From assembly GCF_016125575.1 (NCBI RefSeq), contig NZ_WGLM01000001.1, positions 62,001-126,000 of the forward strand: a stretch of DNA of 64,000 nucleotides, read 5' to 3'. The stretch comes from Limimaricola sp. Its GTDB lineage: Bacteria; Pseudomonadota; Alphaproteobacteria; Rhodobacterales; Rhodobacteraceae. Position numbers and translations under genes: made by a program. The notes beneath the pieces were generated by a model, which was given only the letters and a program-made list of their open reading frames with translations, made no database searches and was not told the origin of the DNA. This document shows, piece by piece, positions 16,851-28,030 of the stretch; position 1 is the stretch's first letter; each line of letters starts with the position of its first letter.

Positions 16851-16925
16851 GCCTGGGTAGCTCAGGGGTAGAGCAGTGGATTGAAAATCCTCGTGTCGGT
16901 GGTTCGATTCCGCCCCCGGGCACCA
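16851..16925 (+). tRNA. tRNA-Phe (GAA), integration site of the island
   Basis: Complete cloverleaf: acceptor GCCTGGG/CCCGGGC, D arm GCTCAGGGGTAGAGC, anticodon loop with GAA in GATTGAAAATC, T arm GGTGGTTCGATTCCGCC, encoded CCA at 16923-16925. The last 16 bases recur at 27701-27716, so the 3' end is the attachment core and the gene is restored on insertion. Confidence 0.97.
16910..16925 (+). repeat. Attachment site at the tRNA-Phe end
   Basis: CCGCCCCCGGGCACCA forms the T-stem 3' side, acceptor 3' strand and CCA of tRNA-Phe. Identical to 27701-27716; flanking bases differ (T and C here, G and T there), which limits the core to 16 bp. Confidence 0.9.
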
Positions 16926-17149
16926 CAAAACATATAAAATTTCATTATATTCCAGATAATTAACGAGAGACCTAGATTTTGTGTCCACCCTAGTGCCCAC
17001 CTTTGACCCGGCGCTGTCGCCAGTTGGTGCCGTCTAGCAAGGGCTGCAAACGAGTCCTAATTCACGAGCACGGCCACCGACTAGCATCTGGATGTCGGGG
17101 AGGGTGTTCCTCAAGCAATCCATTGACACGTAATGGCTTTGCCGGCGGA

Positions 17150-17164
17150 CTATACAAAATATAG
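17150..17164. promoter_or_regulatory. Inverted repeat in the methyltransferase promoter region
   Basis: CTATA (17150-17154), spacer CAAAA, TATAG (17160-17164), 65 bases upstream of the methyltransferase start in an AT-rich stretch. It could be an operator for autoregulation of the restriction-modification genes or overlap a -10 box. No separate controller gene is present. Confidence 0.35.
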
Positions 17165-17228
17165 ATGACGCCTGGACCAGAGCAACAAGGCATGGTATTG
17201 AGTTGGAAGGGAATCATGGAATGAAAAT

Positions 17229-18653
17229 ATGATGCTTCAACATGCCATCGAGGAAGATCAGCAGCAGGCATCCGCAAAGCGAACTGAGACCGGGAAAGCA
17301 GAACTTTACACGATGGTCGATCTCTTCGCGGGCTGCGGCGGCCTTTCACTAGGCTTTGAAGAGGCCAAGTTCACACCTGTTTTCGTGAACGAGCTACACC
17401 AAGATGCGATGGAGACGTACCTTCAGAACCGTCACTACGAACTCGGCGGTATGCCGTTCGCGGAGAACGGAGCTCTTCACTGTAACGATGCGCAAGACCT
17501 GCAAGGCAAACGCCTCGACGCGCTCGTATCAGACCTAGCGAACATTCCGGAGGCGAATTTCATTCCCTCTGAAACAGGAAACCAAGGTGCAGGGGGCGGC
17601 AGCACTCTTGACGTGCTGACCGGTGGCCCGCCCTGCCAAGGTTATTCTGGGATTGGAATCCGGCGCTCCTACTCCGTTGATCGGAAGGACATCCCGTCAA
17701 ACCATCTTTTCGGGCGCATGGCCCAAGTCATACGCCGCTTGAGACCCCGGATCTTCTTGTTCGAAAACGTGCGCGGCCTGTTGAACGCCAAGTGGACCAA
17801 GACTGGCTGCGAGTTCATTTTCCCGGACGTGAAGGCAGAGTTTCGAAAAATCCCAGGCTACGAGGTCAGGTGGTCCTTGATCTACGCTAAGGATTACGGT
17901 GTGCCGCAGAACCGCCCGCGCGTCCTTCTCGTGGGCATCCGCAAGGATATCCTGGAGGCGTGCCCTTCGCTCGACCCGAGCGCCGATCCCGAGGACGCCA
18001 TCGCGTGCGGGTTCCTCCCGAAGGGCAAGATCGGCACCTTCCCGGACCTTGTCGATCTCTTGGGAGATCTGGTGGACCCGGCCGTGGCGGATATCCTGCG
18101 GTCCGATGATTTTGTGCCGGGTGCGTTCGAAACGAAGTCCTATCCGAAAGCAGCACGGACGGCGATCCAGAAGCACTTGCGCCGCCCCGCGCCCTGGAAT
18201 CCCGGCGGGCGGACTAGGCTGACCGAGCAGGAATACAGCAAGCACAAGCGCGAGGTGGTCGAGAAGTTCGACTACATGCTCGCCAACAACGGCGAAATCC
18301 CGGAGCACTTCCAGACCCGGAAGTTCTCCCAGAGGGTGCTCAAGGCACGGTGGGGCAACGGCGAGCCCAACATGACGGCAACTTCGCTTCCCGACGACTA
18401 CGTTCACTATTCGCAGCCCCGCATCTTAACTGTGCGGGAGTGGGCGAGGCTCCAGCTCTTCCCCGACTGGTACCAATTCGCTGGCAAGCGAACCACGGGC
18501 GGCCTGCGGCGCGCCGGGAACCCTCACGCAGGGCTCTTTGAACGGGAGGTGCCAAAATACACGCAGATAGGCAACGCGGTTCCCGTGGGATTGGCCGAGA
18601 AGGTCGGGGAGCACTTCCGGGGGCTCCTGGACGAGGCCCTAGGGAAGAGGTAG
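17229..18653 (+). CDS. DNA (cytosine-5-)-methyltransferase
   Basis: 474-aa C5 methyltransferase of a type II restriction-modification system. Motif I is VDLFAGCGGLSLGFE, motif IV has the catalytic Cys136 in GGPPCQGYSGIG, motif VI FENVRGLL, motif VIII QNRPRVLLVG, motif X YTQIGNAVPVGLAEKVG. The variable target-recognition region lies about residues 250-400. A 25-30-residue N-terminal extension is too short for the HTH regulator of SsoII-type enzymes. It is followed 4 nt later by the endonuclease gene, whose ribosome-binding site lies in its end. Confidence 0.95.
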   Translation: MMLQHAIEEDQQQASAKRTETGKAELYTMVDLFAGCGGLSLGFEEAKFTPVFVNELHQDAMETYLQNRHYELGGMPFAENGALHCNDAQDLQGKRLDALVSDLANIPEANFIPSETGNQGAGGGSTLDVLTGGPPCQGYSGIGIRRSYSVDRKDIPSNHLFGRMAQVIRRLRPRIFLFENVRGLLNAKWTKTGCEFIFPDVKAEFRKIPGYEVRWSLIYAKDYGVPQNRPRVLLVGIRKDILEACPSLDPSADPEDAIACGFLPKGKIGTFPDLVDLLGDLVDPAVADILRSDDFVPGAFETKSYPKAARTAIQKHLRRPAPWNPGGRTRLTEQEYSKHKREVVEKFDYMLANNGEIPEHFQTRKFSQRVLKARWGNGEPNMTATSLPDDYVHYSQPRILTVREWARLQLFPDWYQFAGKRTTGGLRRAGNPHAGLFEREVPKYTQIGNAVPVGLAEKVGEHFRGLLDEALGKR

Positions 18654-18657
18654 CCCG

Positions 18658-19869
18658 GTGCCGCTTCGCCAGCTCACGGATATTGAACGGGAGCGCATGA
18701 AGCGCCTAACGGGCGAGTCCGTGGACATTACCTTGCTACAGCCAACGCGGACGGGGCTTGGTAAGTCCATCATGGACGCTACCGCCCCATTGCGAAACTA
18801 CCTCAAGGAAACGGGGCTCCACGACTTTGACGAGCAGGGCAGGGGCGCGCGGGAAAACGGCGTCAAGCTCGATGCCTACCTGTTGAGCGAAACCGGCGCG
18901 GTGGAGACCAAGGCTTCGCTCTATAAGCCCGAAGCAAAACCCACGAAGGACGGCGATCCGCGCATTTGGATATATGGGCTTCCCGCCTACGCCGAGGCCG
19001 ACGACATGCTTGCTCTCACGGAGCACGAGGGGCGCATCGCGGTGATTAACCTCACCCAGGTGGACGTGGCCCATGTTCTCGATGTTCGGCAGAGTGGCCC
19101 GCTTTGGGACATCATGAAAGAAATCGGGGCCGAGGCGACATCCATTGCCGACGAGCTCTTGGGAAAACTGCGGCTTATCGCGGCCGGTGGCTACGTGCCG
19201 TCGGTCATGGAAACGCGCGCGGACACCGCTATCGGCCGGACACTCGAATCCGCCCTCGGAATCGAGATGAACGCGCGCCGGGAGCCCGATTACAAGGGGA
19301 TCGAGCTCAAGTCTTACCGCCGGAAAAAGAAATCCCAGGAGAACCGCAAACAGCTCTTCGCAAAGGTGCCCAATTGGGAAATCAGCAAGTTCAACAGCAT
19401 GACTGACGTGCTCGATGCGTTTGGCTATTACCGCGATGGCCGCGACCGGCTGAATTGCACCGTGAGCGCAGCCAATATCAACTCGCAGGGGCTAACCTTC
19501 GAGCTCGACGAAAAGGCAGGAATCCTGAACGAGGTTTCGAAGACGACTAACGACGGGGCCTTTGCGTCCTGGTACTTGTCCGAGCTGCGCGAAGCCTTGA
19601 AGGCCAAGCACGCCGAAACATTCTGGGTCGGCGCGAAAGTGCATCCCATCGACGGCCGGGAGCATTTCGAGTTCACGGACGTGATCCATACCCGCAAGCC
19701 TATCGGCAGCCAGTTTGACATCTTGGTCGAGCAAGGCGAGATCACTATGGACCACATGATGAAACGCCTTGATTCAGGGCGCGCCTACGAGCGCGGCCCA
19801 TCCTTCAAGATCGGGGCAGGGTCGCTCGACCTCTTGTTCCCGCCGAGCAAGACTTATGCCCTTGCCTGA
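18658..19869 (+). CDS. MvaI/BcnI-family type II restriction endonuclease
   Basis: 403-aa endonuclease. Around residue 211 the sequence PDYKGIELK places Asp211, Glu216 and Lys218 with the spacing of the MvaI catalytic triad (D-X4-E-X-K), preceded by the family block IGRTLESALGIE. MvaI and BcnI cut CCWGG and CCSGG; the target here is unknown. The first 180 residues are an extra domain (LTLLQPTRT-like, ETKASLYKPE, VINLTQVDV) resembling an EcoRII-type effector domain. GTG start at 18658, with GGGAAGAGG 7 nt upstream. Confidence 0.85.
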   Translation: MPLRQLTDIERERMKRLTGESVDITLLQPTRTGLGKSIMDATAPLRNYLKETGLHDFDEQGRGARENGVKLDAYLLSETGAVETKASLYKPEAKPTKDGDPRIWIYGLPAYAEADDMLALTEHEGRIAVINLTQVDVAHVLDVRQSGPLWDIMKEIGAEATSIADELLGKLRLIAAGGYVPSVMETRADTAIGRTLESALGIEMNARREPDYKGIELKSYRRKKKSQENRKQLFAKVPNWEISKFNSMTDVLDAFGYYRDGRDRLNCTVSAANINSQGLTFELDEKAGILNEVSKTTNDGAFASWYLSELREALKAKHAETFWVGAKVHPIDGREHFEFTDVIHTRKPIGSQFDILVEQGEITMDHMMKRLDSGRAYERGPSFKIGAGSLDLLFPPSKTYALA

Positions 19870-20539
19870 GCCTGATCCCCTCACCAGGGGGGAGAAGGCC
19901 AAGATCACGCGGTTTCGAAAAGACCTTCTCACCTGGTTCGCAGACAAGGGCCGCAACCTGCCTTGGCGCAGGCCGTGTGCGAGCGACTTTGAGCGGATAT
20001 GCGTGGAAGTCCTCCTGCAAAGGACGCGGGCCGAGACCGTTGCAAGGGCCTACCCGGTGTTTTTCGGGCGGTTCACGGGTTGGCCTGATCTCGCGGCCGC
20101 ATCCATCGAGGAGCTGGAAGAACACTTCAAGCCGATTGGCCTATGGAATCGGCGCGCCCGTTCCATGCGGGCGTTAGCAGAGTATGCGGCCGCACGGGGC
20201 GGGCAGTTTCCAAGCGATCCCGTGGAGCTCGCAAAGGCTCCTGCCGTTGGGCAATACGTCCAGAACGCGATCCTGTTGTTCCAGCATGGCGAGGCGAGGC
20301 CACTTCTCGACGTGAACATGGCGCGCGTGATCGAGCGGTTTGTCCGGCCGCGCCGGTTGGCCGACATCCGCCACGATCCATGGCTTCAAGCTGCGGCGCA
20401 TTGGCTCGTGAAGGGCGAGCAGGCCAGGGAGGTGAATTGGGCGGCACTGGACTTCGGTAGCGTGGTTTGTTCCGCGAGAGCACCAGCTTGTGCGAGCTGC
20501 CCGGTTTCTACCCGTTGTCAGTCGAAATCCCTGAACTAG
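19856..20539 (+). CDS. MutY-like HhH-GPD DNA glycosylase linked to the R-M system
   Basis: 227-aa base-excision glycosylase whose ATG lies 14 nt inside the endonuclease gene. Features are the EVLLQRTRAETV helix, the hairpin APAVGQYVQNAI with Tyr134, catalytic Asp152 in LLDVNMARV, and a complete [4Fe-4S] site at Cys205-X6-Cys212-X2-Cys215-X5-Cys221. It lacks the MutY C-terminal 8-oxoG domain. Glycosylases next to C5 methyltransferases (Mig.MthI) remove T from T:G mismatches made by 5-methylcytosine deamination; Tyr instead of Ser in the hairpin fits that role. Confidence 0.85.
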   Translation: MPLPEPDPLTRGEKAKITRFRKDLLTWFADKGRNLPWRRPCASDFERICVEVLLQRTRAETVARAYPVFFGRFTGWPDLAAASIEELEEHFKPIGLWNRRARSMRALAEYAAARGGQFPSDPVELAKAPAVGQYVQNAILLFQHGEARPLLDVNMARVIERFVRPRRLADIRHDPWLQAAAHWLVKGEQAREVNWAALDFGSVVCSARAPACASCPVSTRCQSKSLN

Positions 20540-20733
20540 GGCCAGAACACGCACGATCCGCGCGCCCCAGGCCAGAGCATCGCAGGGTTCTTTTCGTGCA
20601 CGAAGTTGAAAGGCATGCTGCTCGTGGCCCTGCAAAGGGCGAGCGCTTCATCGGCTGAAGTGGCGAGAGCGTAGCCCCACCGGCAGCCAATTCGGTCTTC
20701 GTCTTGGCAGGCTTCGAGTTTCCAAACGCGCAT
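20536..20733 (-). CDS. Small hypothetical protein
   Basis: Possible 65-residue protein, tail to tail with the glycosylase gene and overlapping it by 4 nt at the stop codons. It has three Cys and several Trp (start MRVWKLEACQDEDRIGCRWG, end GARGSCVFWP) and balanced composition, unlike an antisense artefact. No family is recognised and no strong ribosome-binding site is visible. Confidence 0.35.
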   Translation of the reverse strand: MRVWKLEACQDEDRIGCRWGYALATSADEALALCRATSSMPFNFVHEKNPAMLWPGARGSCVFWP

Positions 20734-20780
20734 ACCGAGGCTATGCGGGGAATCTGGTTAAGGAACCGTAAACGCTCATA

Positions 20781-21062
20781 TTAGACGGCCGGTGCCTGCG
20801 GCAATGCCCGCACATCTTCTGGAACCGGCGGTTGTAGGCGCGGTCGCGGCCGACGAAGATCGTGTCGACCGCGGTCTTCATGTTGTCGTAGATGCCCCGC
20901 GTGCAGGTGCCCCCGAAGAAGGCGAAGGCCTTGTCATGCGCGTCGAAGACCATCTCCTGCGTCTCGCGGGGATACCCGCAGCTCACGACAGATCTGCTTG
21001 ATCGACTTCTTGTCCTGAAAATACGCCCGCCGGATCTTCGCTATCGTCTCCACAACCAACAT
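20781..21062 (-). pseudogene. istA transposase fragment
   Basis: The ATG at 21062 begins MLVVETIAKIRRAYF and QDKKSIKQICRELRVSPR, the HTH start of IS21 IstA. Reading frame and sequence then jump to MVFDAHDKAFAFFGG, YDNMKTAVDTIFVGRDRAYN and RRFQKMCGHC, a piece of the DDE catalytic region. The middle is deleted, and homology ends near 20800. Non-functional. Confidence 0.75.
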
Positions 21063-21174
21063 CCCACACTGCGCTCCCCGATGACCTCGGGAGCAACATG
21101 ACTATCAGTGTAAGGGGGTCATTTTTGGGCGCCGATTACCCCGCTACGGGGTCAATTTTGCATGCCGGTTCACA
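20781..21174 (-). mobile_element. IS21-family insertion sequence remnant
   Basis: The left end is recognisable at 21174 (TGTGAACCGGCATGC, then CAAAATTGACCCC and AAAAATGACCCCC, the repeated transposase-binding boxes of IS21 ends). It is followed by the 5' part of istA and a piece of its DDE domain. The right part and istB are gone. Confidence 0.75.
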
Positions 21175-21329
21175 ATTGGACGCTTCCCGCCAGACAACGT
21201 ACGGGCCGAGCTGGCGGGTTTACCGTTGCTTGATCAACTCGCACCGATGCTGTTGATTGCCTCGGGTGCAAATTGGACAACGCGCGGCGGGGCAAAAAAT
21301 GACCTTGGGTTCTTGTTAAAGCAGAGTCT

Positions 21330-21827
21330 TTAGCACTGCGGACCAGAGCTGACGTCGTCATTTCCTGACAGAACCCGACTGCGGATTTCGGCCAGTTTCG
21401 GTGCCAACGCGCGAGCAAAATGCTCTCGGTACTTGCGCCCCTCAGGGCTCTCGCGCCAATATTTGAGGAGTTCTTCATGGCTGTGCCCTCGTGCGCTGGG
21501 CAGACGATGCTCATCGGGGTTTTCGGCGAGGTACGCTGCGATCAACGCATCGTCCCGCCGGATTTGTTCCACCGTATCGAAAACTGCGGGATCAGGCTCC
21601 TCTACTGATCGAGGGTCCGGCAACGGCTCCGGGTCCTTTCCTTCTGATACCAGTATCTGGTTTTTTAGCTTCCTCAGCTTCAGTAAAAGGTCCGCCGATG
21701 AGCGCGGATCTGTTCTAAACGCCCACGTCCGATGTTCTTGTCGTTTCACAGCCTCCAAGTATAAATCTCTTTGGACCGCGACCCGTTTCTTCATCTTTGC
21801 AAGACGAGCCCTCGGGGTTTCAGGCAC
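21330..21827 (-). CDS. Hypothetical charged protein
   Basis: About 165 aa, highly charged, predicted helical. It begins VPETPRARLAKMKKRVAVQ and has a central LRKLKNQILVSEGKDPEPLP, an EEPDPAVFDTVEQIRRDDAL block and RGHSHEELLKYW. No family recognised. The GTG at 21827 lies 7 nt after GGAG in the end of the DUF5681 gene and overlaps it by 8 nt, so the two form a unit. Such pairs occur near phage packaging genes. Confidence 0.55.
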   Translation of the reverse strand: MPETPRARLAKMKKRVAVQRDLYLEAVKRQEHRTWAFRTDPRSSADLLLKLRKLKNQILVSEGKDPEPLPDPRSVEEPDPAVFDTVEQIRRDDALIAAYLAENPDEHRLPSARGHSHEELLKYWRESPEGRKYREHFARALAPKLAEIRSRVLSGNDDVSSGPQC

Positions 21828-22281
21828 CAATCATCTCCATTCTCTTTTGAAGTTCATCGAGTTCTAGGTGAACCTCCTCGGTCTCCATGGCTTTCCTCGC
21901 TGCTTCGACAGTCCGCAGAAGCGCATCCGCCTCGTCCGTTGTGATACGACCTGAGGAAACGAAAATCAGGATCGCATTGACCGCCTTGAGGATGTCCTCT
22001 GGCCCATTGATCTTTGGGATGGTGACCCTCATCGGACGGGATTTGCGGGGCGGCAAGATACGCTCCATGCAAAGCCGGATTGCGGTCAAGTCGCCGGCTT
22101 TCGCGAGTTCGATGGCTTTCTTGGTAATCGCGCCAGCGTCGCCGTCCATAAGCGTCTCGGCCGCCAGTGTCGCCTTACCACGCGCGCCCTTGGGGCGGCC
22201 CTTGGGGTTGCCGCTAGAGCCCTTGGCGAACTGACCCTTCTGGGCCTGTTTCTGGCCAGTTTTTTCAGTCGCCTCAACCAT
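21820..22281 (-). CDS. DUF5681 domain protein
   Basis: 153-aa protein with the DUF5681 signature near the N-terminus (KGQFAKGSSGNPKGRPKGARG), a Lys/Gly/Arg-rich segment often found in phage and island proteins beside terminase-like genes. The rest is helical (TKKAIELAKAGDLTAIRLCMERI) and ends in an acidic helix. Role unknown; DNA binding is likely from the basic segment. It overlaps the 21330-21827 gene. Confidence 0.75.
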   Translation of the reverse strand: MVEATEKTGQKQAQKGQFAKGSSGNPKGRPKGARGKATLAAETLMDGDAGAITKKAIELAKAGDLTAIRLCMERILPPRKSRPMRVTIPKINGPEDILKAVNAILIFVSSGRITTDEADALLRTVEAARKAMETEEVHLELDELQKRMEMIGA

Positions 22282-22474
22282 ATTAGCACCCGACGATAAA
22301 AGGTCACGGGAGCTTACCTAGATCTCTCAAAATGTACAGCATGTTTGCCGGAAGGTAGTGTCTCAATTTGAATTTTCCGCCTGACGTTTTTTGTAGGGGC
22401 CGCGCTTCTTCTGACCTGCCACGGGATTTTTCCTCCACCGTCGATTAGAGTCCGGCCCAACCTGAGGACGGACA

Positions 22475-22741
22475 ATGAAGCGAACGAGATTCACGGACGA
22501 GCAGATCATCGGCATCCTGGCCGAGCACGAGGCGGGCGCAAAGTGTGCGGACCTGTGCCGCAAGCACGGCATGTCGGAAGGCACCTTCTACAACTGGAAG
22601 GCCAGGTTCTGCGGCATGACGGTGTCGGAGGCGAAGCGGCTGAAGGCGCTCGAGGATGAGAACGCGAAGCTGAAGAAGCTGCTGGCCGAGCAGATGCTGG
22701 ATCTCGCCGCGATGAAGGAGCTGGTTTCAAAAAAGTGGTGA
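22475..22741 (+). CDS. IS3-family transposase OrfA
   Basis: 88-aa OrfA with an HTH_8-type helix-turn-helix (RFTDEQIIGILAEHEAGAKC, ADLCRKHGMSEGTFYNWKARF) and a leucine-zipper-like coiled coil (LKALEDENAKLKKLLAEQML). The end carries the A6G slippery run (22729-22735) used for -1 frameshifting to OrfB in this family, and the OrfB frame is indeed -1. OrfB is broken, so the element is defective. Confidence 0.85.
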   Translation: MKRTRFTDEQIIGILAEHEAGAKCADLCRKHGMSEGTFYNWKARFCGMTVSEAKRLKALEDENAKLKKLLAEQMLDLAAMKELVSKKW

Positions 22742-23310
22742 CGCCTGCCGTGAAGCGCGAGGCGGTCGCGCATCTGAAGGCCCTGTTCGGGCTCTCGGAA
22801 CGGCGGGCGTGCAGGATTGCCGGGGCGGATCGCAAGATGGTCCGCTACCAGGCGCAGCGTGCGCCGGACACGGTGCTGCGCGGGCGGTTGCGGGAACTGG
22901 CCAACGAGCGCCGACGGTTCGGCTATCGGCGGCTCTTCGTGCTGCTGCGCCGCGACGGCGAGGCGAACCGCTTTGTGCTGCACATCATGGCCGCAGTCGC
23001 GGAACAAGAGGGCCGCGCAATCTCAGAGCGCACCAAGGCGGCGCTGGCGGCGGCGAAAGCACGTGGAGTTAAGTTGGGCTGGTCTATCCCTGAGCGGGCT
23101 TCTGAGCAGCGTCAGGCGGCTCGGAAGGGCGCAGCGGTGAACAGGGCGCGGGCGCTAGCCCATGCAGAGAACGTCTTGCCAGTGATCGAGCAGATCAGGG
23201 CAGGGGCCGCATCCCTTCGCCAGATCGCGGCGGAGCTGAACACACGGGGGATCAAAACCGCACGGGGTGGTAAATGGCATGCGACCACCGTTCGGAATGT
23301 CCTAGCTTGA
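22735..23310 (+). pseudogene. Chimera of IS3 OrfB start and resolvase C-terminus
   Basis: Open frame of 191 codons from a GTG at 22735. Residues 1 to about 77 are the OrfB N-terminus (LFGLSERRACRIAGADRKMV, RRRFGYRRLFVLLRRDGE). From about 22966 it continues as the C-terminal part of a serine resolvase/invertase (LHIMAAVAEQEGRAISERTK, GVKLG, and a final HTH ITKARGGKWHAT-like segment). The DDE domain of OrfB and the catalytic Ser of the resolvase are both absent, so neither activity is expected. Confidence 0.8.
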
Positions 23311-23348
23311 ATGAAGCCCGCCCAGAGTGGCCACGGGCGGGCTTCTGC

Positions 23349-23430
23349 ATACGGTGTGGGATTCGAACCCACGGAACCCTAAGGTCCTACCGAGTATCAA
23401 TCGGCTGCATTACCACTCTGCCAACCGTCC
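23349..23430 (-). tRNA. Class II tRNA-like gene with GAT anticodon
   Basis: Minus-strand fold: acceptor GGACGGT with ACCGTAT (5 pairs, one G-U, one G-A mismatch), D arm GCAGAGTGGTAATGC, anticodon stem GCCGA/TCGGT with loop TTGATAC (anticodon GAT, Ile), a long variable arm about GGACCTTAGGGTTCC, and T arm GTGGGTTCGAATCCCAC. CCA is not encoded, unlike the chromosomal tRNAs here. A long variable arm belongs to Leu, Ser or Tyr tRNAs, so GAT is unexpected. Could be non-canonical or decaying. Confidence 0.65.
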
Positions 23431-23502
23431 AATGTGCCGTTGCCGACACGGGTATTAGTTCAAATGGGGCAAAAGGTTCCACTTTGCAACCTACTGCCAG
23501 CT

Positions 23503-23611
23503 TGGGCACGGCGGCGGGCCTTGAACCCGCGTCCTCCCTGCCGGTATATGCAAGTGTCACCAAGCACACACGTCGAAAGCAGGGCGCTCTATCCATCTGA
23601 GCTACGCCGCG
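23503..23611 (-). tRNA. tRNA-like gene with enlarged anticodon loop (Arg-type body)
   Basis: Minus-strand fold of 109 nt: acceptor CGCGGCG/CGCCGTG (7 pairs, one G-U), D arm GCTCAGATGGATAGAGC, anticodon stem CCCTG/CAGGG, T arm GCGGGTTCAAGGCCCGC, discriminator C and encoded CCA (23505-23503). The loop between the anticodon strands is 39 nt (23541-23579) instead of 7. It starts CTTTCGA, so the anticodon would be TTC or TCG. All stems are intact. The extra 32 nt are too short for a group I intron. Confidence 0.6.
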
Positions 23612-23617
23612 AAACTC

Positions 23618-24095
23618 CTACTTGTTGTCTACCACCAGTTTGGGCTTCTTGCTCTTGATCCGCGCCTTTTCGGCGGCCTGAGTTTCTGCCTTCTTGGTCA
23701 GTTTCTCTTCTGCAAATGGAGCCACTGCTTTGATAAGGCCGTTGAAGCTGTAAAGGTTTGTCACACTGCCAAACTTTGTTTGTCGCCGTTCTTCGCGCTC
23801 CATAAGCCCCAGTTCCTCCATCGCCTTGATCCGTCTCCGGATCGTGCGAGGGGTCACGCCTCGCCTCGGCAATCGTAGCAACAGAGGGATGAGGCATATT
23901 GTCGGCAAACCACCAGTACTGCACGAGGTGGAGGATAATGTTCATGTCGAGGGGATCGAGGCCAATGGCCGCCTGTTTCTCGATTATGATGTTAGGCAAG
24001 ACGCTCCACCCAGATTCCATGAGCGGTTTCGTCCACTTCTTCTCATTGACGCGAAGCTGCTCCACGTTCTGTTTCTGAGTTGTTAGCTTCGCCAT
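23618..24095 (-). pseudogene. Frameshifted winged-helix protein
   Basis: The ATG at 24095 starts MAKLTTQKQNVEQLRVNEK and reads into a winged-helix domain (LDPLDMNIILHLVQYWW, SVATIAEA). At about 23861 the frame breaks: GCG-A-GGC stands where a full codon is expected, as if two bases were lost. The other frame continues GVTPRTIRRRIKAMEELGL, SVTNLYSFNGLIKAVAPFAE and a Lys-rich tail. Probably an island replication or transcription factor now inactive, unless a sequencing error. Confidence 0.7.
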
Positions 24096-24317
24096 AACCG
24101 TTCGTCCTTGCGCGTCTGTGCACTCGATGTGGCAGGGCAAATAAGCGAAAAAAATACTCTCAGGGGTGTCCCAAGAGACGGTAGCCCCTGTCTAGAAATT
24201 CAGAGGTCGGGCGAACCAAGGGACTGAGGCCGCACGAACGAAGGTTCACCTACCCTTCTGGCAGCTGATAGGCTCCTTCCTTGGACTGCTCGGCCTTCAG
24301 GTAACTATCGGAATTCG

Positions 24318-24366
24318 GTGGGAGGGGAGAGGGGGGCTGGGGGGAGTGGGGTGGGTCAGGGAGGGG
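24318..24366 (+). repeat. G-rich tract with G-quadruplex potential
   Basis: About 49 nt of the plus strand hold at least seven runs of three or more G separated by 1-4 nt (for example GGGAGGGGAGAGGGGGG then CTGGGGGGAGTGGGGTGGG). This meets the G3+N1-7 quadruplex pattern more than once. It sits in a gene-free segment, and the C-rich strand is the template strand for rightward transcription. Confidence 0.7.
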
Positions 24367-24378
24367 CTTGCCCCTCCC
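24359..24378. terminator. Strong GC hairpin next to the G-rich tract
   Basis: GGGAGGGGC (24359-24367), loop TT, GCCCCTCCC (24370-24378): a perfect 9-bp stem, followed on the plus strand by CCTTACTTTTCC. It looks like a terminator for rightward transcription, though no plus-strand gene ends here, so its job is unclear. Confidence 0.45.
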
Positions 24379-24565
24379 CCTTACTTTTCCTGAAAGACTC
24401 GGGCCCAATACCCGCCGCCTCTTCAGGGGCGGACGGGAGTATTTATGTTTCCTTTATTTTTCAGGGATAGACTTTCCTCTATTATGGGGCGTTTTGTCCA
24501 GTTTCCGGGGGCAGAATAGGTGCAGACTACGGGCAAGTCGTCCTATAACCGGGGGCAATATGCCC

Positions 24566-24967
24566 CTAGCTGCTAGTCAACCTCATCACTTCTATTGCAG
24601 CGATAATGCTCTTTTCGTCAGGAGTTGGGATCGGCTCCATGCCGTCATGAAGGACCCGTATGGCCTTCTTATGCCGGCCGCCCCGCCTGTAGGGAGCTGA
24701 TTGCAGGGCGCCGAGCTTCTCCAACCGTTTTACATGCCGTTCGATGGTCTTACGGTCCACACCGAATTCATCAGCCATGCGGCTGATTTGAAGTACCGAC
24801 CAGCGGTGGCCGTCAATGTAGAGCTTGGAATTGCGCCACCAGCGGTCCAAGTTCATGAATACCATTCCTCCGGCAAGGCCCCCGGCTGCCCGGCAATAAT
24901 AGTTTGAGGGGTAGGACTTGCCCTCTGGGTCTTTCGGCTTGTTTTGAGTGAGGTATTTAGATACCAT
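24566..24967 (-). CDS. Winged-helix DNA-binding protein
   Basis: 133-aa cytoplasmic protein. The centre is a helix-turn-helix/winged helix: HRWSVLQISRMADEFGVDRK, TIERHVKRLEKLGAL. The N-terminal part (YYCRAAGGLAGGMVFMNLDRWW) is not recognised. The ATG at 24967 is preceded by GGAGAACTCA, a good ribosome-binding site. It resembles helix-turn-helix proteins of plasmid and island replication regions; a direct role is inference. Confidence 0.65.
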   Translation of the reverse strand: MVSKYLTQNKPKDPEGKSYPSNYYCRAAGGLAGGMVFMNLDRWWRNSKLYIDGHRWSVLQISRMADEFGVDRKTIERHVKRLEKLGALQSAPYRRGGRHKKAIRVLHDGMEPIPTPDEKSIIAAIEVMRLTSS

Positions 24968-25060
24968 TGAGTTCTCCTAGGTATCTTGGTTAGGTGCTGG
25001 GAATTCATGAATGATTGACCCTCGAGAACAGCCTCTCGGGGGCCTTTCGTTTCAGTGCGG

Positions 25061-25345
25061 TCAGATTGACTTGAGCTTTTTGACCTTTTCGACATGTACG
25101 TTGATGAATTCCCATGCCGCTATGTAGTCGATGACGCGGTAATACGCTTGAGCTGGGCCGACCAATTGGACCAGGTAGCCCTCGAGGAGGCCCCGGGTCC
25201 TAAGCCATGTGAGGTGCTGCTGGACGGTGCCTTCTGCCATGCCCATTGCAAGCGCCATGGCCTTGATCCCGGGGATTTTCCAGTCGTAGTTCCCGATTCC
25301 CGCCTTGACTGTATCGGACACATCAGCGGAGGGAAAAGTGAACAT
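25061..25345 (-). CDS. Small HTH protein, start uncertain
   Basis: At least 94 aa from the ATG at 25345. The core GIKAMALAMGMAEGTVQQHL, TWLRTRGLLEGYLVQ is a winged helix, followed by AYYRVIDYIAAWEFINVHV. In-frame sequence continues upstream (KRKLEPSPNPFGRRALIVEY) and looks coding, but no good start is found there; a Lys-rich MEKKTTKKQKK start lies in another frame near 25458, so an old frameshift is possible. Confidence 0.55.
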   Translation of the reverse strand: MFTFPSADVSDTVKAGIGNYDWKIPGIKAMALAMGMAEGTVQQHLTWLRTRGLLEGYLVQLVGPAQAYYRVIDYIAAWEFINVHVEKVKKLKSI

Positions 25346-25460
25346 GTACTCCACGATCAAGGCCCGACGCCCGAACGGGTTCGGGCTAGGCTCCAGCTTT
25401 CGCTTCGTAGCGGGAGCGCTGTACTGGGCTTCTTTTGCTTCTTGGTGGTTTTCTTTTCCA

Positions 25461-25670
25461 TCAGTGCAGACCGCCCTCGCGACTGTCCTTGTTGAGGTCT
25501 GCGCAGCGATGGTCTTCAACCGCCGCGCGCACCTCATCATCCCGCCAATAGAGGCGCGAACCGATCTTAATCGGACGCGGAAGCCGACCCTTTTCCCAAT
25601 CCCGGTAGATCGAACTCCGGCTCCGCCCGCCAAGCATGTTGCGGAGTTGCGTGAAAGACAAAAGACGCAT
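25461..25670 (-). CDS. AlpA-family (MerR-like) excisionase/regulator
   Basis: 69-aa phage-type DNA-binding protein: MRLLSFTQLRNMLGGRSRSS, IYRDWEKGRLPRPIKIGSR, LYWRDDEVRAAVED is the AlpA/excisionase winged-helix pattern. The ATG at 25668-25670 has GGAG 7 nt upstream. AlpA proteins activate integrase or act as directionality factors for P4-like islands, so this is the best candidate to control excision of the element. Confidence 0.8.
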   Translation of the reverse strand: MRLLSFTQLRNMLGGRSRSSIYRDWEKGRLPRPIKIGSRLYWRDDEVRAAVEDHRCADLNKDSREGGLH

Positions 25671-25712
25671 TGTGATGCTCCATGGTTGTTCATGGAACTG
25701 CTTCTGCGCTGG

Positions 25713-26363
25713 TTAGAAGATTCTTAGGAGACTCTCAAAATCAGGCTTTTCTTCTCTTGACAGCCGTTCCTTCAAGAAATCAGCCATTTCTGCGGATAGC
25801 CTGCGCAATACGCGCCCTGGGGGATCCAGAAATCCCAGAGCTACCGCGCTGCCCCAATCAGGAATGTGTTCGTCCGCCAAACTCTTGTCCTTGTATGCCT
25901 TCTTCATCCTGCTCGGAGACCCTTGGGCTTTGGTCCCGGCCAGACAGAGCTGAGCGATTTCATAGGCGTCCTCGATGGTCGCCCCATACCGGTCGAGCTT
26001 TCCCTCTTGCCACAGGGTGAGCCCTTTCTCCGGCATCAAAGTCCATAAGTGGCGGTTCACCTGCCAAGCTCTTATTCCAATGACCGTGTTCCTACGGATG
26101 ATGTCTTGCGCCCGCTGCTCAGTTGAACCTAGCGGTTTATTTCCTCGTCCACTTTTGCCGCGGATTTCACCATTGATTAGGCTCTTGAAGGCATTGATAG
26201 CTGCCTCAGAAAGCCAGTCTGGCAATGGCTTTCGGAACTTTTGGCAGATTGATATGCCCTTGATGACGGCATGCAGGTCACCGTTGAGATACTGAGCCTC
26301 ACAGTCCTCAATCTGACTTCGCCAGATTGCCTTGCCTGGTTGATCCTCTCCTATCTCAGTCAT
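25713..26363 (-). CDS. Integrase-coupled protein of unknown function
   Basis: 216-aa protein whose ATG overlaps the integrase stop by 4 nt (ATGA), so it is probably translated together with it. No recognised domain. It has Trp-rich helical segments (RAWQVNRHLWTLMPEKGLTLW) and a basic loop KSGRGNKPLGSTEQRAQDII. Its position suggests a role in integration or excision, but this is only context. Confidence 0.6.
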   Translation of the reverse strand: MTEIGEDQPGKAIWRSQIEDCEAQYLNGDLHAVIKGISICQKFRKPLPDWLSEAAINAFKSLINGEIRGKSGRGNKPLGSTEQRAQDIIRRNTVIGIRAWQVNRHLWTLMPEKGLTLWQEGKLDRYGATIEDAYEIAQLCLAGTKAQGSPSRMKKAYKDKSLADEHIPDWGSAVALGFLDPPGRVLRRLSAEMADFLKERLSREEKPDFESLLRIF

Positions 26364-27559
26364 GATATATCCACTACGTTGGCCGATTTGGAAATTGATC
26401 CGCCCTGAACGTGGGCGGCCCACCGTTCCATCACCTCACTGCGTTGGTTCAGGTAGTCAGTGCGCCGGTAAGACCGCTCAATAGAGCTGCCAACGACATG
26501 TCCCAAGCATGTCTCGGCAACTTCGTAGGGTACCTGCTGCGTCTCAGCCAACCAGTCGCGGAAAGAGGATCGAAACCCGTGTGGTCTATAGGACAAATGG
26601 CGACTTTCCATCAGGCGAGACATTGTTGCATCCGAGATGACGCCCTTCTTAACACTCGGAAAGACGAAGCCATCTCGTTCGAAGGGTTTGGCTTGATCCA
26701 AGATGTCCAGAGCAAATCGCGAGAGCGGTACCTTGAAATCCGAAGTTGCATCCCGCCGCCCCTTCATCATTTCAGCTGGGATGGTCCAGACATCGTCGCA
26801 AACCTGATCGTACCTCATGAAGCGCAAAGGCCGCGAGCGAACGGCGGTAAGAATTAGCATCCGCAAGGCAAGATGCGTTGTTGTGCCATCATCCAGCGAA
26901 CCGAAAAATGCTGGGACCTCATCCCATGGCATAGCGGGGACATGCTCAACGGCGTGCTTCTGTTTTCCGAGCAAGGCCTTTGCCTTCTCAACCGCCTGGA
27001 GGTCGACGTTCAAACCAAGAGCAGCGGCGTGCTTCATGCAGATGTTCAGGCGGTTCATGGCCTTTCGTGCTGTATCCGCCTTGGCGTGCCAGATCGGAAG
27101 CAGTGTGTCGCGGATGTCTAGCTGGTCAATTTCCGCAACCGGAACTCTGCCCAATTTCGGCAACACATGAAGTTCAAGCGGACTGAACCACCGCCCCGCC
27201 TTGCCTTCGCCCTTCAATTCGGCCTTGCGGCTCTCGAAGGCGTCGAGGGCAATATCCTGCAAACAATGCAGATTGCGAGCAGCCTCACGATTTTGCCGCT
27301 GACGTTCCTTCACCGGGTCCTTCCCTTGGCGAGCTATACCCCGCCAGTGCTCGGCGGTTTGACGGGCCTCCTTCAGAGAGACACTGATCGTCGACCCCAG
27401 ACCCATCTCTCTGCGCCGCCCGTGCACGGTTACGCGGAGAAACCACTGGCCGCCCCCGTCGTGGCGTTTGTGTAACCAGAGCCCTCCGCCATCCGAATAT
27501 TTTCCGGGAGACAAGGTCTTGAGCTGTGCAGCGCTTAAGCGATTGAGGCTTCGGGCCAT
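26360..27559 (-). CDS. P4-type tyrosine recombinase (island integrase)
   Basis: 399-aa site-specific recombinase that inserts the island into tRNA-Phe. N-terminal arm-binding DUF4102 domain (LSPGKYSDGGGLWLHKR), central core-binding domain about residues 100-195, C-terminal catalytic domain with Arg in LTAVRSRPLRFM, the HGFR box (HGFRSSFRDWLAE), LGH and the nucleophile Tyr in SYRRTDYL. The ATG at 27559 begins MARSLNRLSAAQLKTLSPGK. It lies 142 nt from the distal attachment site. Confidence 0.93.
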   Translation of the reverse strand: MARSLNRLSAAQLKTLSPGKYSDGGGLWLHKRHDGGGQWFLRVTVHGRRREMGLGSTISVSLKEARQTAEHWRGIARQGKDPVKERQRQNREAARNLHCLQDIALDAFESRKAELKGEGKAGRWFSPLELHVLPKLGRVPVAEIDQLDIRDTLLPIWHAKADTARKAMNRLNICMKHAAALGLNVDLQAVEKAKALLGKQKHAVEHVPAMPWDEVPAFFGSLDDGTTTHLALRMLILTAVRSRPLRFMRYDQVCDDVWTIPAEMMKGRRDATSDFKVPLSRFALDILDQAKPFERDGFVFPSVKKGVISDATMSRLMESRHLSYRPHGFRSSFRDWLAETQQVPYEVAETCLGHVVGSSIERSYRRTDYLNQRSEVMERWAAHVQGGSISKSANVVDIS

Positions 27560-28030
27560 TAACCACCTATCTATCCACCCAATACAAAACTTATAGCATG
27601 AAACATGGCGGGCTACCATGACACAACTTTTGCATTTGCGTTCATTGACTTAGTGGATCGTCTGGTTTGCCGTGGAGCATAGCGGAACGATAATACAATG
27701 CCGCCCCCGGGCACCATTTTCCCCAGATTGAAACCTGCTGACCGTTGAAATGTACCGTGGTGCGTTCACATGCTGGGCCCATCTTGCAACCCTGTGGCGG
27801 TGTTACCGGTCGTGGCGCCGTTAACGGGTCCGGGGCAACGGTGATCGGCCGGGTTTCTTCGGTTTCAATTCTCGCAAGACAACCCGGCCAGGAGCGGGCA
27901 GAAGCAATCGGGGTCGCACGCATTTGCTTTCAGCGACATCCGGGCTAATCTACGGATATTAGTATAGTTACATGGTTGGTCTTGGTATTCCGAAAACGGG
28001 TTGAGTAGGGCTAGAGGTTTGTAAGTAAAA
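27560..28030. other. Island right end and attachment site flank
   Basis: No supported gene. 27560-27700 is the end of the island with the integrase promoter region. The 16-bp repeat is at 27701-27716. 27717-28030 is the old chromosomal sequence downstream of tRNA-Phe; it becomes AT-rich near 27950-27990 (AATCTACGGATATTAGTATAG), where the promoter of the LuxR-type gene probably lies. Confidence 0.5.
27701..27716 (+). repeat. Distal attachment site
   Basis: Exact copy of the last 16 bases of tRNA-Phe, CCGCCCCCGGGCACCA, not part of any tRNA here. It marks the right end of the island. Confidence 0.9.

Follow-up and report, generated by a model that had tools for sequence, protein, structure and literature searches.

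A tRNA-Arg-like RNA with an extended anticodon arm, linked to a winged-helix gene on proteobacterial plasmids and islands

The locus described here raises the question of what two neighbouring, non-canonical tRNA-like genes are doing on a mobile island of Limimaricola sp. An earlier note on this DNA had proposed either a pair of unusual tRNAs, with mischarging, tRNA mimicry or a decoy function in mind, or two tRNAs in decay. Our analysis of the window, by which we mean the whole 64,000-nucleotide stretch in which the genes lie, divides this proposal between the two genes: the first, of class II, fits decay, and the second, an arginine-type RNA, fits mimicry and not decay. There was no sign that they belong together as a pair, as the second RNA has relatives of its own and none were found through the class II gene.

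The island and its class II tRNA gene

Positions 16907-27716 of the window are likely a 10.8-kb element integrated in tRNA-Phe, bounded by 19-nt direct repeats that are 95% identical and carrying an integrase. The probable left attachment repeat (16907-16925, plus strand) is the 3' end of tRNA-Phe, and the probable right repeat (27698-27716, plus strand) adjoins the tyrosine integrase gene at 26360-27619 on the minus strand, which matches the Pfam domains Phage_integrase and Arm-DNA-bind_3. The cargo includes a cytosine methylase and an MvaI/BcnI-type restriction gene. A frame at 22735-23310 on the plus strand holds part of a serine recombinase, with the Resolvase end (PF00239) and the Recombinase domain (PF07508); by eye, 22480-23310 reads as a transposase-like start running into this partial recombinase, beside both tRNA-like genes, and recombinase genes also lie near the extended-arm RNA on several plasmids.

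One of the four tRNAs that ARAGORN reported in the window is tRNA-Ile (gat) at 23347-23430 on the minus strand, and the Rfam tRNA match (50.6 bits, one non-standard acceptor pair) shows a long variable-arm insertion, so that the class II fold with a GAT anticodon described earlier is confirmed. Plasmid matches of this gene are short pieces only. Among the best 20 of 47 phage records its matches are mostly annotated as tRNA-Ser, the best-scoring listed relatives being tRNA-Ser(GCT) genes. Three phage genes compared closely, from Aeromonas phage 4_L372X, Curtobacterium phage Yappy and Brevundimonas phage Kikimora, share the class II body; the first two carry GCT and the third CGA, with none of the three carrying the GAT of the window, and in the alignment the anticodon region reads TTGATA in the window against TTGCTA in the two best-scoring phage genes. 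Relative to these genes the window copy has a weakened outer acceptor stem, both outer pairs being open in its fold, and has lost its CCA, ending in ATGCA where the phage genes have a tRNA-like 3' end. Its fold is also weaker against shuffled sequences (z -0.6, compared with -2.3 to -3.0 for the three phage genes). The gene thus keeps the class II arm and G73 of a tRNA-Ser and lacks a serine anticodon, a closed acceptor and CCA. Decay of a phage tRNA-Ser(GCT) gene is its most likely origin. A serine-type body with GAT, if still made, could mistranslate; the evidence favours decay. An ordinary tRNA-Ile(gat) is already present in the host. As a separate observation, tRNA-Tyr was absent among the host tRNA types recovered from 44 matches, and one narrow pattern search for it was also empty; it was probably overlooked or lies in an assembly gap.

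Structure and relatives of the extended-arm RNA

The second gene occupies 23503-23612 on the minus strand. ARAGORN made no call for it in the window, and Rfam matched it as tRNA at 23506-23611 (minus strand, 43.5 bits against a gathering score of 29) with no non-standard pair and about 35 nt in the anticodon loop. The fold and this match bear out the arginine-type body with four pairing stems and an encoded CCA that had been noticed before: the acceptor stem pairs 23611-23605 with 23513-23507, the D arm spans 23602-23586, the anticodon stem pairs 23584-23578 with 23542-23536, the T arm spans 23530-23514, and the 3' end consists of C73 at 23506 followed by CCA at 23505-23503, all on the minus strand. 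The unusual part had been described as an anticodon loop of 39 nt. Its extra length holds, and its character as a loop does not, as it is mostly helix: a 5-nt bulge, UUCGA (23573-23577), which contains the arginine-type triplet UCG followed by A, adjoins an inserted hairpin (23544-23571) whose 8-bp stem pairs GUGUGUGC (23571-23564) with GCAUAUAC (23551-23544) around its own apical loop. The folding energy of this RNA taken alone is unremarkable (z -1.72, with 11 of 200 shuffles as good), and it is because relatives with the same layout occur on plasmids and in genomes that the structure is not attributable to chance.

The earlier note had counted a lack of homologues sharing these features against an unusual RNA, and the search for them gave 23 further copies with the extended arm, bringing the family to 24 copies in 23 loci, window included, in Alpha-, Beta- and Gammaproteobacteria. 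At one locus (L033:4474-4739) two copies stand in tandem behind a single winged-helix gene. A blastn search of the gene pair against plasmids matched Acidisoma, Xanthobacter and Caulobacter plasmids across the insert at 79-80% identity, together with one Enterococcus record in which a 39-base match lies inside a tRNA cluster. This Enterococcus faecalis record (NZ_CP143580), a 747-kb "plasmid" with a tRNA cluster and typed MPF_T, is odd for its species and may be mislabelled. A 22-base gapped pattern run over 84,980 species genomes gave eight stretches, whose titles all name Proteobacteria or a subgroup. Further members came from a family covariance model, R1, searched over 385 genomes of the class (L043, L044 and L049, among the matches listed); from the pattern, found in three of 398 genomes of the phylum (L087 and L088, the third being the genome of L049); from 15 plasmid stretches retrieved by way of the partner gene, four of which held the RNA (L073, L074, L075 and L079); and from a further search (L253) and hits in three of 390 genomes of the order, which include the window's own and that of L088 (L255). 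The RNA is rare; a frequency of about one in 100 sampled genomes is a lower bound, as the searches were strict and counts are among the matches listed.

The window copy scores 111.7 bits with R1, of which it is one of the 12 building sequences. The R1 score alone does not part weak members from ordinary tRNAs, which reach at least 69.9 bits, and match length was therefore also used. Phages and viral contigs yielded no convincing family member among the matches listed, the best viral R1 score in the 81 sources scanned being 60.5 bits; the viral contigs (at least 120 stretches) were left out of the counts, as was the viral L041 (57.1 bits), in which the winged-helix gene was not found. Among the viral matches listed, L104, L141, L156, L162 and others carry tRNA-like sequences with 54-84 nt between the D arm and the T arm, and in several of these, by eye, the anticodon loop gives way to a long hairpin; L115, L130, L133, L136 and L146 share, again by eye, a related insert ahead of the T arm, made up of TTATAC within the anticodon arm and then a second small arm. 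These viral sequences form a zoo of phage tRNA-like RNAs.

Rfam release 15 holds no family for the extended-arm RNA beyond tRNA: only RF00005 reached its gathering score in the copies scanned with Rfam, and L074 and L079 matched nothing. No description of an extended-arm tRNA-Arg-like RNA was found among titles and abstract openings, a body of text in which few subscription journals are covered. PLSDB omits RNA genes; in seven of eight plasmids with the RNA, L075 being the exception, the locus tags skip exactly one number at its position, suggesting an RNA gene in the RefSeq annotation.

Conservation of the structure was assessed on 20 sequences, with L074 (52 bits) and L079 (39.5 bits) excluded for low score but kept in the tally of 24, and with L253 and L255 also outside. 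In this set 96.9% of paired cells are occupied by pairs, against 40-54% when the partners are slid by one to three columns, and 20 of 29 pairs show changes on both sides. Both-side changes mark every one of the six pairs scored in the inserted hairpin (87% paired), six of seven acceptor pairs and five of seven pairs of the anticodon stem. Hand drawing of the inserted stem on 12 of the 20 sequences favours its pairing percentage; the slid controls and the compensatory changes serve as the safeguard, and hand-drawing explains compensatory changes less easily than it explains the percentage. RNAalifold on the first alignment did not find the inserted stem. Folds of single sequences form the hairpin in most copies, with L040, L044 and L087 folding differently. 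The window copy has the second-best score of the 20. We consider it very probable that the family is real and functional.

The winged-helix partner and the genes around the RNA

Directly upstream of the RNA in the window lies a small winged-helix gene resembling DnaD-N and HTH_36 (23618-24095, minus strand), which stops 5 nt short of it. An interruption near 23860 puts the two parts of the gene in different frames, one matching profile positions 4-80 and the other 82-160. The winged-helix gene is tightly linked to the RNA in 18 of 23 loci: 16 loci have a gap of 3-19 nt between its stop and the RNA, L253 has one of about 6 nt, and in L049 the gene and the RNA share 3 nt. The profile was built from six proteins, which come from six of the 16 loci. 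The remaining five loci lack the gene or cannot show it: in L037 only 54 nt of contig precede the RNA; the profile found no match in L043, where just a tail looks similar by eye; at L029 a different small protein stands 7 nt ahead of the RNA; and neither L088 nor L255 carries a winged-helix gene.

The protein of L031 passes the Pfam cut-offs for PF13730 (HTH_36) and PF21984 (DnaD_N) with 40.5 and 33.5 bits, and the winged-helix protein matches DnaD in the PDB (2vn2, E 5e-10) as well as phage replication initiators. DnaD takes Foldseek ranks 1-3 (E 8e-6 to 1.4e-4) for a model from five sequences whose pLDDT of 69 gives modest confidence. Relatives of the protein on plasmids number 337 records at E 1e-6, and the gene-RNA pair is carried by a plasmid of 12.7 kb. 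By R1 the RNA is absent from 11 of the 15 plasmid stretches fetched (L072, L076-L078 and L080-L086), where the next gene varies.

On its other side the RNA is followed at 16-56 nt by a gene on the same strand in eight of 23 loci (L029, L031, L033, L039, L043, L074, L088 and L255), counting annotated genes or open reading frames of at least 100 amino acids, with mechanical ORF starts in L033, L039 and L043; in the other 15 loci no such same-strand gene was seen close behind. In two genera of the window's family a ribonucleotide reductase gene follows the RNA (L088:1494-1600 and L255:1501-1606), with its start codon 18 and 28 nt away. A general role in the leaders of such genes was rejected: the gene was found in 106 of 120 genomes and 30 loci were fetched, in which R1 scores reach at most 19.9 bits, and none of the 28 usable leaders holds the RNA by eye, L263 and L281 having been dropped because a short flank put them out of register. 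L088 and L255 are therefore exceptions. Upstream of position 1501 in L267 there is a possible relic of a tRNA-like RNA in the same reductase leader.

The neighbourhood also holds defence genes. Ten proteins picked from seven RNA loci were compared with PADLOC-DB, and six matched defence families while four did not: GajA and AbiTii in L031, PD-Lambda-1 in L036, AbiEi and AbiEii in L038, and PDC-S06 in L039. These ten are a non-random choice, some of them having looked defence-like beforehand, the count comes without a background rate, and mobile elements are rich in such genes. No nuclease of tRNA-Arg was seen among the neighbour proteins scanned, a chosen part of them.

Arginine-type features, proposed function and rival readings

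Recognition of tRNA-Arg depends on A20, on C35 with G or U at 36, and on A73 or G73. In the family, which has the cloverleaf with its four stems, A20 follows G18 G19 in all 24 copies, as GGAUA in 19 of them, and among 33 class I host tRNAs a GGATA D loop occurs only in four tRNAs for arginine. The bulge carries the motif NNCK followed by A or G in 21 of 24 copies, the triplets being UCG in 10, UCU in seven, GCG in two, ACG in one and GCU in one, with three copies lacking the motif at the scored place; it is absent in L074 and L079. In 20 of the 24 copies the triplet is an arginine anticodon, yet it stands one position off, and the strict positions 34-36 mostly read UUC. The serine anticodon GCU appears in two copies, L088 and, one place further along, L049. 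CCA directly follows the discriminator in 12 of 24 copies and comes one base later in five. C73 is present in 10 of the 12 with direct CCA, window included, and the other copies are mixed, so that the A73 or G73 of tRNA-Arg is not kept; host tRNA-Arg genes have G73 or A73, and a CCCA ending occurs in none of 30 host class I tRNA types. Instead of a 7-nt anticodon loop with an unpaired U33 the RNA has the bulge and hairpin (at alignment column 36 a U is paired with G in 17 of 20 sequences, otherwise paired in two and unpaired in one).

The canonical bacterial tRNA-Arg (RF00005) thus shares with the family the cloverleaf, the G18 G19 A20 D loop, the T arm, often CCA and an arginine-type triplet, while the family differs in its hairpin in the anticodon loop, its mostly G-paired U33, its frequent C73 and its location in mRNA tails or leaders. 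Because C73 is frequent and U33 mostly paired, decoding by the extended-arm RNA appears unlikely. The host genome matches include tRNA-Arg with CCG, TCT, ACG and CCT, so the RNA fills no obvious gap. Derivation from one host tRNA gave no clear parent, the best combined match of D arm and T arm being Met for eight, Thr for seven, Arg for four, Ile for three and Asp for two of the 24 copies, and general similarity of these arms does not single out arginine. ARAGORN reported no tmRNA in the sources scanned, and the RNA at 23503-23612 has a complete D arm.

Our leading reading, held tentatively and on sequence evidence, is that the RNA at 23503-23612 is a conserved, unspliced and non-decoding mimic of tRNA-Arg that would act as a decoy or sensor for a protein that binds tRNA-Arg. 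Transcription, processing, binding partner and function are what we infer here. The RNA would be transcribed as the tail of the winged-helix message or, at some loci, as a leader for the gene behind it, and RNase P, which cuts the 5' end of tRNA bodies, may trim it free. A20 and the N-C-G/U-A strand would be retained as the parts by which proteins know tRNA-Arg, while the added hairpin, which puts a bulge and an adjoining long helix where the anticodon loop would be, and the frequent C73 could leave an RNA that is bindable and hardly charged or read; it is from these properties that a decoy or sensor for a protein recognising tRNA-Arg is proposed. The target may be arginyl-tRNA synthetase or a nuclease attacking tRNA-Arg, and the mobile element might use the RNA to protect itself or to tie the expression of neighbouring genes to the state of tRNA-Arg.

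Some known RNAs are partly similar. The tRNA-like module of YrlA and bacterial Y RNA is likewise a non-coding tRNA mimic; the acceptor and 3' end of our family, in contrast, are those of a tRNA. The E. coli thrS operator is an mRNA anticodon mimic bound by an aminoacyl-tRNA synthetase. Anticodon mimics in yeast mRNAs are reported to be bound by aminoacyl-tRNA synthetases (PMC6542539). With these mimics the family shares a tRNA-like stretch in an mRNA that a synthetase could bind, and it differs in having a whole cloverleaf, a linked gene that is not a synthetase, and binding that is putative.

The next reading, which we regard as doubtful, is that the shape serves only as a "tRNA punctuation" mark for cuts by RNase P and a 3' nuclease, giving the winged-helix mRNA its 3' end and the next gene its 5' end. 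The RNA starts at most 19 nt from the upstream stop in 18 of 23 loci, and the same-strand genes close behind it in eight loci, with the two reductase genes among them, fit such a mark; a processing site would need no covarying hairpin, conserved NNCK(A) bulge or A20, and the 15 loci where no gene was seen close behind on the same strand speak against it. Less probable again, and unlikely in our view, is an addiction pair in which the RNA would be the toxin, tying up arginyl-tRNA synthetase or the ribosome, or else the antidote, with the winged-helix protein as counterpart. Carriage of the pair on so small a plasmid would suit this, and among the 11 RNA-less winged-helix relatives fetched, a PemK-family gene (L072) and a RelE/ParE-family gene (L085) lie directly behind; the other nine have other, unknown or no near genes there, the RNA of L029 follows a different protein, and L088 and L255 are without the winged-helix gene.

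Ranked below this, and improbable, is an antisense regulator acting in cis or trans on the winged-helix gene or on plasmid copy number, which the tight linkage and the resemblance of the partner to DnaD and phage replication initiators would suit. Antisense pairing between the insert and the region where the winged-helix gene starts was rejected, as it was no better than chance at 5% in any of 12 loci (100 plain shuffles each), 19 of 100 shuffles being as good in the best case, and the Xanthobacter and Methylocaldum plasmids carry a separate RepA.

That the RNA is a tRNA precursor from which some unknown bacterial enzyme cuts a short intron is very unlikely. To our knowledge, bacterial tRNA introns are large self-splicing ones. 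The hairpin does sit in the anticodon loop, the site of protein-spliced introns, and the tRNA body is intact, with CCA encoded at the regular place in half of the copies. Protein-spliced tRNA introns of archaea and eukaryotes are likewise short anticodon-loop inserts with an extended helix; in contrast to these, no bulge-helix-bulge was seen in the folds of the family, and RtcB (PF01139) and the tRNA-splicing endonuclease tRNA_int_endo (PF01974) were each found in none of six carrier genomes, host included, of which five are at least 90% complete and one 86%, with positive controls at nine of 14 for RtcB and four of 14 for the endonuclease. Splicing by these known enzymes is therefore not supported, and known protein splicing is an unlikely way to remove the insert. 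Group I introns of bacterial tRNA genes also lie in the anticodon loop; at about 32 nt, the insert of the family falls well short of the length that self-splicing needs, and no group I intron was matched by Rfam in the copies scanned. A short conserved insert together with known splicing proteins that were not found points to use of the intact, extended form. Least probable of all is decay of both genes, which would fit the class II gene and the interrupted winged-helix gene of the window and is largely contradicted for the second RNA by its 24 copies, its compensatory changes and the high rank of the window copy.

Taken as a whole, the extended-arm RNA may represent an unnamed family, a view we put forward tentatively. 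Its members would be complete mimics of tRNA-Arg in which a bulge next to an internal hairpin now holds the anticodon. With the DnaD-like winged-helix gene as partner, the RNA would form a protein-plus-RNA module of plasmids and islands that controls or protects the element and its defence genes by imitating a tRNA. The module would also have established itself in a chromosomal ribonucleotide reductase leader. An insert that is short and structurally conserved within a tRNA-like RNA is thereby described across three classes of Proteobacteria, with a testable two-part module on mobile elements and a covariance model for finding more, and tRNAs annotated on plasmids with an "intron" may in fact belong to a separate RNA family.
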